From: Rhodopirellula sp.
Lineage (GTDB): Bacteria > Planctomycetota > Planctomycetia > Pirellulales > Pirellulaceae
Direction of reading: 5' to 3'
Assembly (NCBI GenBank): GCA_002701385.1
Contig: NZVD01000079.1
Location: 1 to 64,000, forward strand
Length of the DNA stretch: 64,000 nt
Part shown: one piece after another, positions 49,444-56,388 of the stretch
Position numbering within the stretch: the stretch's first letter is position 1
How the letters are laid out: every line of letters starts with the position of its first letter
The notes under the pieces: generated by a model
What the model was told of the DNA's origin: nothing
Database searches by the model: none
The model's input: only the letters and a program-made list of their open reading frames with translations
Program-made: the position numbers and the translations under genes

Positions 49444-50868
49444 TTAGGCCAGTAATTTATCAACGACATGGCCATGGACGTCGGTGAGCCGGAAGTCCCG
49501 ACCCTGAAACTGAAACGTCATGTGTTCATGATTTATACCTAACAGGTGTAGCATGGTAGCGTGCAGGTCGTGTACCGAAACCACGTCTTCCACGGCGTTA
49601 TAACCGAGATCGTCAGTGGCTCCCACGGTCGTGCCAGGTTTAATGCCACCGCCGGCCAGAAAGATCGAATACCCTTTAATGTGATGATCACGGCCATTCC
49701 CTTGTGCCATTGGAGTTCTTCCAAACTCGCTGGCGAACACTATGAGTGTGTCGTCAAACATGTCACGTTGTTTGAGGTCTTTGATCAATGCCGTGATTCC
49801 CTGGTCGATAAGTTTTGCCGTATTCTGACTCGCTCCTTTCACGTTTCCGTGGTGATCCCATCCGCGATGATAGAGTTGAATAAACCGGCATCCGCGTTCC
49901 GCCAGTCGTCGGGCCAGCAGGCAGTTGGCAGCAAAAGTTCCGTCTGCTCCTTTCGTGCCATAAAGATCCATGGTCGCCTGAGTTTCGTCACTGGTATCCA
50001 TCAAACCGGGCACGCTGGCCTGCATTCGGAAGGCCATTTCATACTGACTGATGCGAGTGGTGATTTCCGGATCGTTGACAACCTCACCTCGAATCTGATT
50101 CAGCTGCTGAACAGCTTTGACGATGTCGGCCTGTCCATTCCGATCCACTCCCGGAGGATTGTTTACGTACAGGACTGGGTCGCCCTGGCTGTGGAAATGC
50201 ACACCTTGAAAGCGACTTGGTAAAAAGCCACTATGCCATTGCCGTGAAGCAATCGGTTGATCCTGTCCACCACCGGAGGAAGTCAGCACGACAAACCCTG
50301 GGAGATTTTCTGTCTCGGCGCCCAGTCCATAGGTAAGCCAGGAACCCATTGATGGTCGGCCACTTATCGTTGTGCCGGTGTTCATAAATGTATGAGCCGG
50401 GTCGTGATTGATCGCTTCGGTCTTAAGCGACCGGACAATGGCAATATCATCTGCCACACTTCCCAGGTGCTCCCAGATCGCTGACAGTTCATTTCCTGAT
50501 TCACCATGCTTTTTAAATTCATGTTGTCCGCCGAGACATTTCAATTCACGGTTTTGCAATTGAGCAATGGGTTGACCTTTGGTGTAGGATTCAGGCATTG
50601 CCTGCCCGTCCAATTCACGCAGTTTGGGCTTGTTATCGAAAGTCTCTAAGTGGCTCATGCCACCTGCCATCGTTAAAAAGATAACTCGTTTCGCCTTGGC
50701 TTCCCGATGTAATTGACCATTGAGGATGCCCGGCCAACGAGGAACTTTCACCTCGGTATCAGCAGCCTGTGTCTGATTCATGAGAGAAGCAAGCGCATAG
50801 ACACCGATGCCCTGTGCACCGTGGCCTAGAAAACAACGACGGTTTAATGAAAATGAGTTATTAGCCAT
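49444..50868 (-). CDS. DUF1501 family secreted protein
   Basis: 474 residues from ATG 50868, where GGAG is 9 bases upstream; the ATG at 50877 directly abuts that GGAG. The N-terminus has a twin-Arg-like signal (SLNRRCFLGHGAQGIGVYALASLM). The family fold resembles sulfatases and alkaline phosphatases. Family sequences include KAKRVIFLTMAGGMSHLETFDNKP, FKKHGESGNELSAIWEHLGSVADDIAIVRSLKTEAINHDPAHTFMNTG, WDHHGN and FGRTPMAQGNGRDHH. In planctomycetes it is encoded together with DUF1549/DUF1553 proteins, as here (36 bases downstream of one). No activity is proven. Confidence 0.92.
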   Translation of the reverse strand: MANNSFSLNRRCFLGHGAQGIGVYALASLMNQTQAADTEVKVPRWPGILNGQLHREAKAKRVIFLTMAGGMSHLETFDNKPKLRELDGQAMPESYTKGQPIAQLQNRELKCLGGQHEFKKHGESGNELSAIWEHLGSVADDIAIVRSLKTEAINHDPAHTFMNTGTTISGRPSMGSWLTYGLGAETENLPGFVVLTSSGGGQDQPIASRQWHSGFLPSRFQGVHFHSQGDPVLYVNNPPGVDRNGQADIVKAVQQLNQIRGEVVNDPEITTRISQYEMAFRMQASVPGLMDTSDETQATMDLYGTKGADGTFAANCLLARRLAERGCRFIQLYHRGWDHHGNVKGASQNTAKLIDQGITALIKDLKQRDMFDDTLIVFASEFGRTPMAQGNGRDHHIKGYSIFLAGGGIKPGTTVGATDDLGYNAVEDVVSVHDLHATMLHLLGINHEHMTFQFQGRDFRLTDVHGHVVDKLLA

Positions 50869-50903
50869 TGGAATCATCTCCGGATGGTCATGCCGTAAAG
50901 ACT

Positions 50904-53843
50904 TTAGTTTCGGGTAATGGTTTCATGAAGATTGAGAATAATACGAGCGATGGATGTCCAGGCAGCCAATTCGCTCTTATCCAGATTCTCCGGTACAGCT
51001 CGACGTCCTACGCTTAAGTACTCATCTGCAGCCTGTGTGTTTGCTTTATATAATTCCACGTGCTTTGAAAGGACGTTTAGCAAGACATTGGCTTCATTTG
51101 GATTAACGTTTCGTGATAAAGCTGATTGATAGGCCCAGTTCAGGCGGCTGGACTCATTTGCTCCACCTTCCAGCAAGATCCGTTCAGCAAAGGCACGGGC
51201 TGCTTCCACATAGGTGGGATCATTGAGTAATACCAAGGCCTGCTGTGGGGTATTGGAACGAGGACGACTCACCGTGCATTCTTCACGGCTGGGAGCATCA
51301 AAAGCTAACAGCGACGGATGAAGGAACATGCGTTGCCAGTGAGTATAAAGTCCTCGACGATATATTTCGTTGCCACCGGACAACTGCCAGGTCCGTTTGG
51401 GGAAATTCATATGCTTCCAGTATCCTGCGGGCTGATAGGGTTTTACGCTTATTCCTCCCACTTCGGCATTAAGCAAACCGCTGATCGAGAGTGCTGTGTC
51501 CCGGATCATTTCCGCTTCCAGACGGAATTGAGACTGCCGAGCATATTTGTGATTGTATGGGTCTAAGGCAGCTAATTTTTCAGTCAATCCTGAAGATTGC
51601 TGGTAGGTATTGGAGGAGACAATCAGGCTGACAATATGCTTTACATCCCAGCCGCTCTCTACAAATTCAACAGCCAACCAGTCCAGTAATTCGGGGTGAG
51701 TCGGACGCGTTCCCTGTGCACCGATGTCGTCGAGAGGTTCTGCCAGGCCGTGACCAAAGAAGACTTTCCACAAGCGATTGACCAACACTCTGGAAGTCAA
51801 CGGGTTATCCGGATCAACCATCCAGTTCGCGAGGTCCAGTCGGTTAGGTCGACGTCCTTCAATGGCAAGCGGTTTCATGAATCCGGGGACAAGTGGAGAA
51901 GCCTCCGCACCCGAATCGTCCATCCAGTTTCCTCGTGGAAGTACTCGGATCATACGGGGTTCACGCGTGCGTGTCATGAGTGTCTTAGGAGCGGAATCAT
52001 TGAGTTGCTTTAGTTGTTGTTGTAGTTGAGCAATTTCGTCTCGTTGTGGTTTTAATTCACTACTATTGTCACGGTAGTAATCCGACAGTTTGTTCTGTTC
52101 GGCATCGGCACGGTCTGCCAGAGGTTTCGCGACGATTGCTGCAACGTCTGCTGGAACACTACTATTGCTATGCGTGTAGTAGAAACCAGCGCCGCCTGCT
52201 CCCTGCGAGATTTTGAGCAGGATTTGGTTTTTACCTTCCAGCAGATCAACAACGACCTTTTCCTGATCGGCAGCAGGACCTCGGGAAACTTTATTGTTGA
52301 GGACTTCTTTTTGGTTTACCCAAACTCGAATTCCGTCATCACTTCCGAATTTCAGTTCGACCTTAGTTGCGGCCTTTACTGTCAGCGTTCTCAAGAGGTA
52401 GTGTGCTGCATTGGGAGTTTGATCCAACGCGTGGATGGTGCCGTCTGCGAATTCTTTTTCAGACCATTTTTTGTCGCCAATGGCAACGGTCAGATCAATG
52501 GCCTCCGCTTCGTTAACAAAAGACTTGTCATGAGCCTCGTCGAAGCTTGTCGCTGAAATAGGGCCGATGTACTGCCATTTGCCTGCAGTAATGCTTGTAT
52601 CTGCTTGCTTTGCCAGTTCAGCTTCCCAGGCCTTACGAGTATCATTAAGTTCACGAGAGATAGCATTCAAAGCTCCTTGCTTGTCAGCAATGTCCTTTGT
52701 TTTGTTGGCAATCTGGTCAGCCAACATTCCTGCGATGACAGGGAAGGCAGGTGCATTACCGACCCCGACTTCATTGACGTCTGCAAAGAATGAGGCAAAG
52801 TTGTAGAAGTCCTGCGTGGTGAACGGATCATACTTATGATCGTGGCACTCAGCACAGCCCAAGGTGACTCCCAGAAAAATCGATGCCGTATTACGGACTC
52901 GATCTGCCGAGTATTTGGCTAGGTATTCCTTTGCCTGAGCCCCGCCTTCATCGGTAGTTTGCAGCAACATGTTGAACCCGGAAGCGACTTGCTGTTGGAG
53001 CGTGGCGTCTTTCATTAGATCCCCTCCTAATTGCTCTCGAACAAACTGATCGTAGGGTATGTTGGAGTTAAAGGCGTTGATAACGTAGTCACGATAAGGA
53101 GCAATTTGACGCGTTTTGTCCGCATGATAGCCATTACTGTCGGCATACCGAACGATATCCAGCCAGTACATTGCCAGCCGTTCACCGTATTGAGGTTTGT
53201 CTAGCATCCGTCGAATCAGATTGGCATAGGCATTGGGGTCTTTGTCGTTGACGAAGGTGGAAACTTCTTCGGTACTTGGTGGCAGTCCGAGTAAGTCAAA
53301 ACTGAGTCGACGAATTAAGGTAACTCGGTCTGCGGCTGAACTCATATTGAGTCCTTCGCGGGAAAGTTCAGCCAATATAAAGTTATCAATGGAGTTGCTG
53401 GTCTTACTTTTGGGAGCTTGTGGTACTGCAGGGCGATTGGGAGCGGTCCAGGCCCAATGTTGTTTCCACTCTGCTCCCTGATCAATCCAGTTTTTTATGA
53501 GTTCAATTTGATCGTCTGTTAGCTTTTTACGAAAACCAGCCGGAGGCATCATTTCGTTTTCATCGGTGGATGAGATGCGTCGAAAGAGTTCGCTGGCACT
53601 GGATTTTCCCGGTGTTATTAGAGGAGTGTCGCGATCTGAGAAAACACTATCCTTGTCATCCAGACGCAATTCCGCTTCTCGTGTGTTTTGATCCGGACCG
53701 TGGCAGGCAAAGCAATTGTTAGACAGTATTGGACGAATGTCCCGATCAAAGTCCACTTCTTGCGCCTGTAGCAGCGAGCTTGAAAAGGCAGCGATATAAA
53801 GTCCAATGGAGACAGAGAGAATACGGCGAGTAATCATCTTCAA
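50904..53843 (-). CDS. Large secreted PSCyt1/DUF1549/DUF1553 protein with c-type haem motifs
   Basis: 979 residues with a signal peptide (MKMITRRILSVSIGLYIAAFSSSLLQAQ). Planctomycete cytochrome c domain PSCyt1: VDFDRDIRPILSNNCFACHGPD (Cys44, Cys47, His48). DUF1549 begins at about residue 145 and contains a second CXXCH (CAECHDHKYDP). Residues 440-560 form a PA14 or jelly-roll-like insertion (GSDDGIRVWVNQKEVLNN). DUF1553 ends the chain (NRLDLANWMVDPDNPLTSRVLVNRLWKVFFG...). It forms a two-gene unit with the DUF1501 gene. It shares architecture, but little overall sequence, with the haem-motif protein at 25.8-29.1 kb. Confidence 0.93.
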   Translation of the reverse strand: MKMITRRILSVSIGLYIAAFSSSLLQAQEVDFDRDIRPILSNNCFACHGPDQNTREAELRLDDKDSVFSDRDTPLITPGKSSASELFRRISSTDENEMMPPAGFRKKLTDDQIELIKNWIDQGAEWKQHWAWTAPNRPAVPQAPKSKTSNSIDNFILAELSREGLNMSSAADRVTLIRRLSFDLLGLPPSTEEVSTFVNDKDPNAYANLIRRMLDKPQYGERLAMYWLDIVRYADSNGYHADKTRQIAPYRDYVINAFNSNIPYDQFVREQLGGDLMKDATLQQQVASGFNMLLQTTDEGGAQAKEYLAKYSADRVRNTASIFLGVTLGCAECHDHKYDPFTTQDFYNFASFFADVNEVGVGNAPAFPVIAGMLADQIANKTKDIADKQGALNAISRELNDTRKAWEAELAKQADTSITAGKWQYIGPISATSFDEAHDKSFVNEAEAIDLTVAIGDKKWSEKEFADGTIHALDQTPNAAHYLLRTLTVKAATKVELKFGSDDGIRVWVNQKEVLNNKVSRGPAADQEKVVVDLLEGKNQILLKISQGAGGAGFYYTHSNSSVPADVAAIVAKPLADRADAEQNKLSDYYRDNSSELKPQRDEIAQLQQQLKQLNDSAPKTLMTRTREPRMIRVLPRGNWMDDSGAEASPLVPGFMKPLAIEGRRPNRLDLANWMVDPDNPLTSRVLVNRLWKVFFGHGLAEPLDDIGAQGTRPTHPELLDWLAVEFVESGWDVKHIVSLIVSSNTYQQSSGLTEKLAALDPYNHKYARQSQFRLEAEMIRDTALSISGLLNAEVGGISVKPYQPAGYWKHMNFPKRTWQLSGGNEIYRRGLYTHWQRMFLHPSLLAFDAPSREECTVSRPRSNTPQQALVLLNDPTYVEAARAFAERILLEGGANESSRLNWAYQSALSRNVNPNEANVLLNVLSKHVELYKANTQAADEYLSVGRRAVPENLDKSELAAWTSIARIILNLHETITRN

Positions 53844-53976: not shown

Positions 53977-54603
53977 CTAGAGAGCTTCTGTGTGTCCGTC
54001 GGATTCATACACTCGCAAATGCTGATTGGCTTCAATGTCAATCAGTTTGGTTTCTTCACCGGAAGGCCACGCAATGGTGATGGAATCAACTTGTTGATGC
54101 TTCTGAAGACCTATGTGCACTTTTGCCTGAGCTTGCGACAGGAAGTTTACGACGGGGAAGAGTTCCCGTTGGACGGTCAAATCTCCAGCTTTGACGATGA
54201 TTTTAGCCCCGATGCCAGCCGAATTACTTTGTTCACCCCGAAGTGAAATAGCCAGCCAGTTTGTTTTGGGGAAGTTGTTTTTATAGACAACCAGAGCGCC
54301 ACCTCCGACCTGTCGCACAAACAACTCCGGCATGCCGTCTCGATCGATATCTGCACCAACTACCGTACGGGAATCTCCGCGGTTATCGCTGCCAGACAGA
54401 TAGGAGATATCTAAGAAAGAGCCGTTGCGATCATTGAGAAAGCACCCGTTTCTTTCATAGGCACTGAGGTTCTCTTTGACGTTTGAAAACTTAAATGGAT
54501 TACCCACCCAGAACTCGCCATTGTCTTCATCGACATCCCGTAGCTCGGGAACAGAGGCAGTGCAACTAAAAGGCTGTGACACGACAGCCAGCCAGACGCA
54601 ACG
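53977..54603 (-). other. Downstream, same-frame continuation (ASPIC/UnbV part) after the TGA
   Basis: After the TGA, seven codons (RCVWLAV) lead into GTG 54582 and 201 further residues ending in TAG. If translated alone it would be a cytoplasmic half-propeller plus ASPIC domain, which is not a known stand-alone architecture. Confidence 0.7.
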
Positions 54604-56388
54604 TCAGCCATCCGACTTGTCTTCGGTGACACTTTGGAAGCCTACTGGAGCATAGATTTCCTGATAACCGTCACCGTTTAAGTCGATAGCTCCTGTTCCA
54701 TAGGCCCAGCCGACATCATTGACTCCTACGTCTCGCCCAATGCGTACGAAGGTACCGTCTCCTTGATTGTGATAGAGTTCGTTACCCGACACGAATTCTT
54801 CGAGCTGTGTTTGGATGTCGTGTTCAAAGTCGTCATAGAGACCTGAACGGATATTGCCGACGATACGCTCTCCTGCTTTGGAGTACATATTAGCCAGATA
54901 GGGGTCACCAAATCCGTCGTTATCGATATCCGCAACCGTGATACCCATTGAAAATCCGCCATGAGACCCTGGGAGTTCAGCCAGCGTAAAGGTTCCGTCT
55001 CCGTTATTCAGGAAGTAATCGTTTTGTCCGAATTCACAGGCAGTCATGTAATCCGGCCAGGAATCACCATTGGCATCGAACCAAACAGCAGAGAACGCTC
55101 CGGTGCCTAATCCAATTGTCCCGGATGACTCGGTAACGTTTTCAAATTTGAAATTCCCAAGGTTTCGCCAGAGCCTGTTTTCGGAAGCTCGTTCCCCATC
55201 GGTTTCTGCATTTATCCAGCCATGTGCTCCTTCTTTGACAACCACTCCGACTTCCATAAAGTCCAACAGACCGTCTTTGTCAAAATCAACCAGTGTGATA
55301 CTACCGAGTTGCTTGGCTAAGGGGACGTCAAATTCCTCTTCGGTCAGTTTTCTAAACTTTTTACCTGATTCATTGACGTACATGGCCTGCCCGATGATTA
55401 GGTCCTCAAAGGTGTCATTGTTGAAGTCAGCGACAACGGCTACTGGTTCTTTAATGAATCGCTGCAGACCGACTTGCATCGTCTGCTCCTCAAACTTCCC
55501 AGTCCCGTCACCTACGTAGAAGAATAGTCCATCCAGATCGGTTAACAAGAAGTCTGTATTACCGTCCTGATTGAAGTCATTAGCGAAAATTCCTCCGGTC
55601 ACGAACGGACGCATCTGCCCTTCGGGGTAATCGTGTTTCCAGTTGTCACGCAGTCCTAAAGTGGTCATGCCTGTTTGGTTGGTAATATCCTGCATCAGGT
55701 AGTCATTGGAGTTTCCGTATTTCCCTTCGTAGGGCGAACAGCTCAGAATGTATTCCTTCAGGTCAGGTGTATCCTCTGAGATAGCTGCAATCCGACAGTT
55801 GAATTTGAGGGAAATGAAAGCAACTTTTCCCTGAGCGTCTTTTCCGGATAAGGATAATTTGAAACTTCCCTGCCAGGGTTCGTCGAACTTGCCGTGGGAT
55901 TCCGGCATCATTTGCATGACCTTAAAGCCGGAACGCTCTAGAGTTTGAAATCGTTCACGCAATTCACGAATAGCTGCAACAAATTCCGATTTGTTCAAGC
56001 TGTCCTTAGGTGACTCGGAATTCCAATTTTTGAAATGTGCAAAGTCGAAATCGCTCTCTTTTCCGTTTTCCCAAACAAATAATTGGCCTTCAAAATCCGG
56101 GGCAAAGAAGGTGCTGAACCGTTCCCAGTGTTCTTTTTCAATCGCTTGATTGATCTTAGGAAAAGCCAGGTCTCCTAATACAAATCCACCAAAATGCTCG
56201 ACGTCCTGCAGGTACTTGGCATCTTCCTCAGAAATTGCCAGGGATTCCGTTTGTTCGGGGGTCGAAGAATCCTGAGAGGTGATAATGACTTCCGAATTTG
56301 TATTTGATTTGTTACCTGGATCGTCCGAATTACATCCTGAAATCAGGATGCCAAGAAAACAGACTATGAGTAAGCGTGAGGTAGACAA
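53977..56388 (-). CDS. FG-GAP/VCBS-ASPIC/UnbV (CRTAC1-like) lipoprotein with an in-frame TGA; candidate selenoprotein
   Basis: Read through the TGA at 54604-54606, the frame encodes about 803 residues. The start is probably TTG 56388 and is uncertain. A lipobox (LISGC, Cys19) marks an exported lipoprotein. A 230-residue N-terminal domain is followed by FG-GAP blades (DFNQDGNTDFLLTD, DFDKDGLLDFMEVG, DIDNDGFGDPYLAN, DLNGDGYQEIYAPV). At residue 595 the codon is TGA, followed by Arg-Cys (U-x-C). The same frame continues with the last blade (ADIDRDGMPELFVR) and an ASPIC/UnbV domain (NSAGIGAKIIVKAGDLTVQRELFP), the usual C-terminus of this family. No base insertion is needed to join the parts. Alternatives are a nonsense mutation, or a second gene starting at GTG 54582 that would lack its own export signal. 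Confidence 0.75.
54572..54606 (-). promoter_or_regulatory. Candidate bacterial SECIS element following an in-frame UGA
   Basis: On the minus strand, TGA (54606-54604) is followed after 20 nt by the loop of a hairpin. GGCTGT (54589-54584) pairs with ACAGCC (54577-54572) around loop CGTGTC (54583-54578). Bacterial SECIS elements have a short stem, a loop 16-37 nt after UGA and a G in the first two loop positions. All three conditions hold here (G is the second loop base). Confidence 0.55.

Follow-up and report, generated by a model that had tools for sequence, protein, structure and literature searches.

A lipoprotein frame with one in-frame TGA

The window, by which we mean the whole 64-kb stretch of DNA analysed here, carries on its minus strand a frame of 594 codons (56388-54604) that begins with TTG, encodes a lipobox (ISGC) and is terminated by TGA at 54606-54604. 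Beyond this TGA, a further 208 codons are open in the same frame until TAG at 53979-53977, so that the TGA is the sole interruption of an FG-GAP/ASPIC-UnbV lipoprotein frame spanning 56388-53977. The two codons directly 3′ of it are CGT and TGC, and reading the TGA as selenocysteine (Sec, U) would give U-R-C. The features of the locus are as follows.

53977..56388, minus strand: putative selenoprotein gene, coding for 803 residues if the TGA is read through, from TTG at 56388 to TAG at 53977-53979 (homologues with the same single TGA)
56332..56388, minus strand: signal peptide and lipobox (LISGC, Cys19) of a predicted exported lipoprotein (sequence inspection; Cys in the lipobox region in 39 of 52 aligned homologues)
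55687..56229, minus strand: alpha+beta domain at the N-terminus, residues ~54-234, perhaps of the NTF2/ketosteroid-isomerase type (fold matches weak; probable extent)
54244..55596, minus strand: FG-GAP beta-propeller with calcium-binding DxDxDG, residues ~265-715, split by the Sec insert (Pfam, alignment, structure model, CRTAC1 structure 9etn as best match)
54448..54648, minus strand: Sec-bearing insertion within one propeller blade, residues ~581-647 (secondary structure of the model)
54604..54606, minus strand: putative UGA selenocysteine codon, residue 595 (aligned TGA in homologues)
54598..54600, minus strand: Cys597 codon, the U-x-C partner, invariant in subfamily A, defined below (alignment of homologues)
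54572..54589, minus strand: putative SECIS hairpin with a 6-bp stem and the 6-nt loop CGUGUC (base pairing, fold, conserved codons)
54016..54216, minus strand: ASPIC/UnbV domain, residues 725-791, wholly 3′ of the UGA (Pfam)

The original prediction, made from the letters of the DNA, had placed an in-frame TGA at 54604-54606 in an FG-GAP frame, followed by Arg and Cys codons (U-x-C) and, in the same frame, by the missing final blade and the ASPIC/UnbV domain. Coordinates and frame proved exact, CGT TGC is read after the TGA, and Pfam places UnbV_ASPIC wholly after it. In the read-through product, Pfam detected FG-GAP (PF13517, 3.5e-38) and UnbV_ASPIC (PF07593, 7.4e-17). In a codon-position comparison with homologues, differences 3′ of the TGA fell mostly at third codon positions; judged by this comparison, the 208 downstream codons are under purifying selection.

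Selenocysteine machinery of the genome

The source genome has a gene for tRNA-Sec (65.8 bits; SeC(tca) in ARAGORN). Its SelD itself contains Sec, with a TGA in the CxxU motif (SCAGUAGK; L019:1399-2451, G000:C23). Both of these genes had been expected under the original prediction. As for selA and selB, in the 100-contig assembly the two genes were below the cut-off and only the first codons of selB were present.

A likely explanation for this absence came from the relative G006, whose ortholog of the gene is 97% identical and in which intact selA and selB lie adjacent on an 8.2-kb contig. Just two pieces of this contig were matched in the source genome, C66:22457-23035 and C42:1-159. The former runs up to the final base of contig C66. 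The latter starts with base 1 of contig C42, which lies inside the 5′ end of selB (MNNGPPATD...). The gene for tRNA-Sec is on the same contig C42 at 8.9 kb, and a similar distance from selB to tRNA-Sec was seen in G001, G002 and G005. Because both flanking pieces end exactly at contig ends, there is a strong case from these alignments that the selA-selB locus of the source genome falls in an assembly gap between C66 and C42. Lack of Sec machinery, as suggested by selA and selB being below the cut-off, was rejected once this gap had been located.

Among the matches listed, the TGA-containing gene was present in 18 of 25 genomes with Sec machinery and in 2 of 15 without it (p=0.0008), figures that are approximate since the genomes are related. 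Two genomes with the TGA gene, G004 (69% complete) and G008 (91%), had neither selB nor tRNA-Sec detected. Some Sec-decoding relatives had no TGA copy among the matches listed.

Conservation of the TGA codon in homologues

We searched 118 relatives for homologues, with stops read through and with Cys at the Sec site of the query. Nearly all full-length homologues, including every same-genus copy that covers the site, have exactly one TGA. This pattern persists at 30-40% identity, and in the loci that we read the TGA falls in a single column of the codon alignment. The gene is also carried by a cultured relative, strain K23_9 (L135). Alignment at this codon, proposed earlier as a check on the prediction, thus gave TGA, with Cys instead in one side branch, together with a conserved hairpin. 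Conservation of the TGA and the hairpin across phyla is far beyond chance.

The homologues fall into three subfamilies. Members of subfamily A, to which the gene in the window belongs, have about 800-880 amino acids and the motif DG-U-x-C-x-W-x-AVV[ST]QP. Members of subfamily B are longer (about 1250-1450 amino acids) and have the motif DL-U-S-F-x-W-R-[QRH]-V; in many cases an AhpC-TSA/TlpA-like domain with WCxxC comes next, together with TPRs. They have no U-x-C partner, which means that another residue has to do the resolving; 16 of 18 have an NC[CA] motif further on. In subfamily C (8 sequences), Cys takes the place of Sec, within the motif D[YH]C[ST]xxW[CR]HD. In one relative, G024, in which selB was not detected, the Sec column is Ala.

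For subfamily A, GTDB species genomes were searched with a pattern in which the amino acids around the UGA are fixed and the third codon positions are free. At least 115 loci were found in Planctomycetota, Verrucomicrobiota and one Acidobacterium. Almost all of them lie in frames that extend hundreds of codons upstream and, where the contig permits, about 200-220 codons downstream. In 392 Planctomycete genomes, the reversed control patterns gave no matches, while the true patterns gave 8 copies in 6 genomes for A and 60 copies in 38 genomes for B. Copies with the B-type motif numbered 15 in G011 and 12 in G070, and there were none in three relatives without detected Sec machinery. These counts suggest, at the level of sequence, unusually large selenoproteomes in some Pirellulales such as G011 and G070. 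The original prediction was silent on the spread over several phyla and on this multi-copy, often thioredoxin-fused second branch.

These comparisons bear on the possibility of a pseudogene, in which a nonsense mutation or an error of sequencing would have put the TGA into a normal CRTAC1-like gene. Reading with genetic code table 11 does give a truncated gene. Two loci of one species, L027 and L113, also carry an unexplained second in-frame TGA elsewhere in the gene. Against this explanation, independent assemblies from many genera and three phyla agree on TGA for this codon, the 208 downstream codons are under purifying selection, and the aligned homologues have TGA, Cys or, in a single case, Ala there, but never Trp or Arg. 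There is practically no chance of a pseudogene or sequencing error, which the conservation of the TGA and of the downstream codons refutes.

The second TGA of L027 and L113 is at codon 454 of the L027 frame, where it replaces a Ser codon in DANGDSWPD. It is absent from L097, a near-identical gene from another assembly. It could be an error, a sign of decay or another site of recoding.

Selection on the RNA hairpin

The original prediction had also included a SECIS-like hairpin, and every element of it was exact on recount: a 6-bp stem formed by GGCUGU (54589-54584) and ACAGCC (54577-54572) and a 6-nt loop CGUGUC (54583-54578) with G as its second base, the stem starting 14 nt and the loop 20 nt after the end of the UGA (54604). 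A local RNA segment of 47 nt folds at -15.5 kcal/mol with the hairpin stem. The published model of bacterial SECIS elements has a stem of 4-16 bp, a loop of 3-9 nt with G in its first two positions, a spacing of 16-37 nt between UGA and loop, and a minimum free energy of -7.5 or lower (PMC13188914). The hairpin agrees with it in stem (6 bp), loop (6 nt, second-base G), spacing (20 nt) and energy (-15.5 kcal/mol). The z score of the fold was only -1.2, so the fold alone is weak evidence and we relied on comparative tests. In Rfam, no SECIS family matched the hairpin, and the only match was a chance one to mir-34.

The codons that form the hairpin are nearly invariant at their third positions. 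Among the matches listed for the subfamily A pattern, these were as in GCT in 137 of 139, GTC in 136, GTG in 136, xCA in 133 and CAG in 136. Residue conservation here is circular, because the search pattern picks the residues; codon choice is not. We measured codon entropy over 73 homologues of less than 80% identity (mean 37%) with 94 conserved columns. The hairpin codons GCT-GTC-GTG-xCA-CAG had 0.10-0.11 bits, and the four lowest entropies of the 94 columns were theirs. The remaining conserved columns had a mean of 1.38 bits and a minimum of 0.68, and the adjoining Pro codon, with its third base beyond the stem, had 1.96. Near-invariance at these synonymous sites implies selection on the RNA itself.

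Base changes in the stem are in line with this. In subfamily A, a C-G pair is replaced by U-A in Verrucomicrobial members, a compensatory change. The stem of subfamily B has another sequence and position, and all six of its pairs form in 46 of 48 distinct sequences; one of them alternates in a compensatory way between A-U (30) and G-C (17), moving with residue changes Q/R and V/A/T.

Two A copies of the Gemmataceae type (L127:2814-2848 and L161) keep the TGA with the usual stem broken. Their altered hairpin codons are GCG GTC GTG TCT CAG in L127 and GCG GTC GTC TCC CAG in L161. We propose a decaying or an alternative SECIS element for these two loci.

Reassignment or leaky reading of UGA, as Trp or another amino acid and without selenium, would also produce the long protein, since the frame stays open under any read-through. 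This is extremely improbable. Among TGA-joined frames with halves of at least 70 codons each, this gene is the only one in the 64-kb window free of overlap with other long ORFs, which argues against a global reassignment. The genome has tRNA-Sec, a Sec-containing SelD and the start of selB, the hairpin fits the SECIS model and is selected at synonymous sites, and subfamily C substitutes Cys, not Trp.

The reading as a selenoprotein is supported by tRNA-Sec, the TGA-containing selD and the conserved TGA and hairpin in homologues. Of the refuting conditions named with the original prediction, none that could be examined by sequence analysis went against it. As far as sequence comparison can tell, the gene almost certainly encodes a selenoprotein, in which Sec would be inserted at UGA 54606-54604 to give an exported lipoprotein of 803 residues, for which a mass near 88 kDa is calculated.

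Predicted structure

A structure model based on an alignment of 61 sequences (pLDDT 91, pTM 0.90) consisted of an N-terminal alpha+beta domain, a propeller and an ASPIC domain. Sec595 opens a helix (595-604) in the blade insertion, and is thus placed in a propeller and outside any thioredoxin fold. Ordinary FG-GAP blades presumably have no such Sec-bearing insert. The only conserved cysteines in the aligned homologues are the lipobox Cys and Cys597 (U+2).

A propeller of FG-GAP repeats followed by an ASPIC/UnbV domain is the common plan of CRTAC1/ASPIC-UnbV proteins. Murine CRTAC1 (PDB 9etn) was the best PDB match both by sequence (E 8e-8) and by fold (E 2e-22, TM 0.70 over the target). It has no Sec, and its alignment at the Sec site is only loose. 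Compared to CRTAC1, the bacterial protein has two additions, the Sec-bearing blade insertion and the N-terminal domain. The Pfam domains, the ISGC lipobox and the fold match to 9etn agree with the initial description of a CRTAC1-like FG-GAP lipoprotein.

UGA/Sec codons generally compete with termination. The truncated propeller of 594 residues might therefore be an intended second product at low selenium, and it retains most of the FG-GAP blades. It lacks, however, part of a blade and the whole ASPIC domain, and we saw no feature that would make it useful. We consider such a selenium-dependent switch unlikely.

Possible function of the Sec residue

The fused TlpA-like domain in subfamily B is the main clue to function. 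The protein is probably an extracytoplasmic selenium-dependent oxidoreductase acting on thiols/disulfides or peroxides, for three reasons: Cys597 is the only conserved Cys besides that of the lipobox, Sec begins a helix in the model (pLDDT 91), and AhpC-TSA/TlpA-like domains with WCxxC are found in many members of subfamily B. SelB on the SECIS hairpin would bring Sec-tRNA(Sec) to UGA 54606-54604. The Sec selenolate would attack the substrate and Cys597 would resolve it as a selenenylsulfide. A thioredoxin-like protein, a partner often fused in subfamily B, would then re-reduce Sec-Cys597.

FG-GAP propellers bind calcium. It is conceivable, though rather doubtful, that Sec and Cys597 form a binding site for metal or selenium, with a structural or transport role in place of redox catalysis. 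We found no assayed member of the family, and subfamily B has the NC[CA] motif further on instead of U-x-C, both of which leave room for such a site. Redox cycling is the better fit to a Sec that begins a helix and is followed by Cys at +2, and to the fusion of thioredoxin domains seen in many members of subfamily B.

Taken as a whole, the results are very likely best explained by Sec recoding that yields a probable extracytoplasmic Sec-dependent oxidoreductase built on a propeller. A wider proposal, to which we give an even chance, is that these proteins form the first beta-propeller class of selenoenzymes. They would be surface or periplasmic CRTAC1-like proteins with a catalytic Sec that regains its reduced state from a TlpA-like thioredoxin, either cognate or fused. 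With an expansion to at least 15 copies in some Planctomycetes, extracytoplasmic redox chemistry on propellers would dominate the selenoproteome there.

Relation to known selenoproteins

A review of May 2026 catalogued 119 families/subfamilies of prokaryotic selenoproteins, of which most characterised members have a thioredoxin-like fold (PMC13188914). The present family shares with them the in-frame UGA, a SECIS element in the coding region, SelB/tRNA-Sec and Sec/Cys replacement, but is a beta-propeller. No FG-GAP/CRTAC1/UnbV family is in that catalogue, and its text mentions neither those domains nor Planctomycetes or Verrucomicrobia. The nine new families of deep-Sep do not include an FG-GAP/ASPIC selenoprotein. 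No NCBIfam model, those for selenoproteins included, was over the cut-off for A, B or the Verrucomicrobial member tested. The literature searched on selenoproteins in Pirellulales/Planctomycetota or in UnbV/FG-GAP/CRTAC1 proteins contained no description (supplements, preprints and most subscription papers were outside its scope). The earlier statement that no selenoprotein was described in this family stands against the 119-family catalogue of 2026 and NCBIfam.

There is also a likeness to UGC-containing TlpA/ResA-like selenoproteins, which are thioredoxin-like redox proteins with Sec. In subfamily B, by contrast, the thioredoxin domain is separate and its WCxxC has Cys only, while Sec is in the propeller. 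For Porphyra-associated Planctomycetes, a full Sec machinery and several predicted selenoproteins were reported; FdhA, FmdB and antioxidant enzymes are named in the parts of that report considered here, and an entry for the present family might stand elsewhere in it (PMC4807772). This is apparently a new, uncatalogued selenoprotein family that uses canonical bacterial Sec decoding.

The family adds widespread, multi-copy selenoproteins on a fold unusual for selenoproteins in phyla hardly covered by selenoproteome surveys. The standard code reads these genes as truncated, and therefore the Sec motif and the ASPIC domain would be lost in automatic annotation. CRTAC1 is the animal member of the ASPIC/UnbV FG-GAP proteins, for whose function the Sec/Cys pair and the fused thioredoxin provide a testable handle. 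With their different SECIS hairpins, subfamilies A and B provide a natural experiment on how RNA constraint shapes the sequence of an active site.

Gene neighbourhood

A conserved operon partner was absent from most of the 115 loci listed, and no neighbour in them pointed to a substrate. Recurrent, though not universal, neighbours were FG-GAP/ASPIC paralogues (22 loci), TPR proteins (18) and PSCyt1/PSCyt2/PSD1 proteins (11). In the window, the downstream neighbours (49444-53843) are a PSCyt1/PSD1-like gene (DUF1549/DUF1553) and a DUF1501-like gene.

The TPR protein is often only 1-23 bp from the A-type gene (L060, L087, L119, L125, L158 and others), sometimes beside an FG-GAP/ASPIC paralogue. 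Since subfamily B often fuses thioredoxin and TPR to the propeller, the TPR protein may be part of the system. In three Verrucomicrobiales loci (L059, L061 and L166), selB lies 2-19 bp from the subfamily A gene in convergent orientation.
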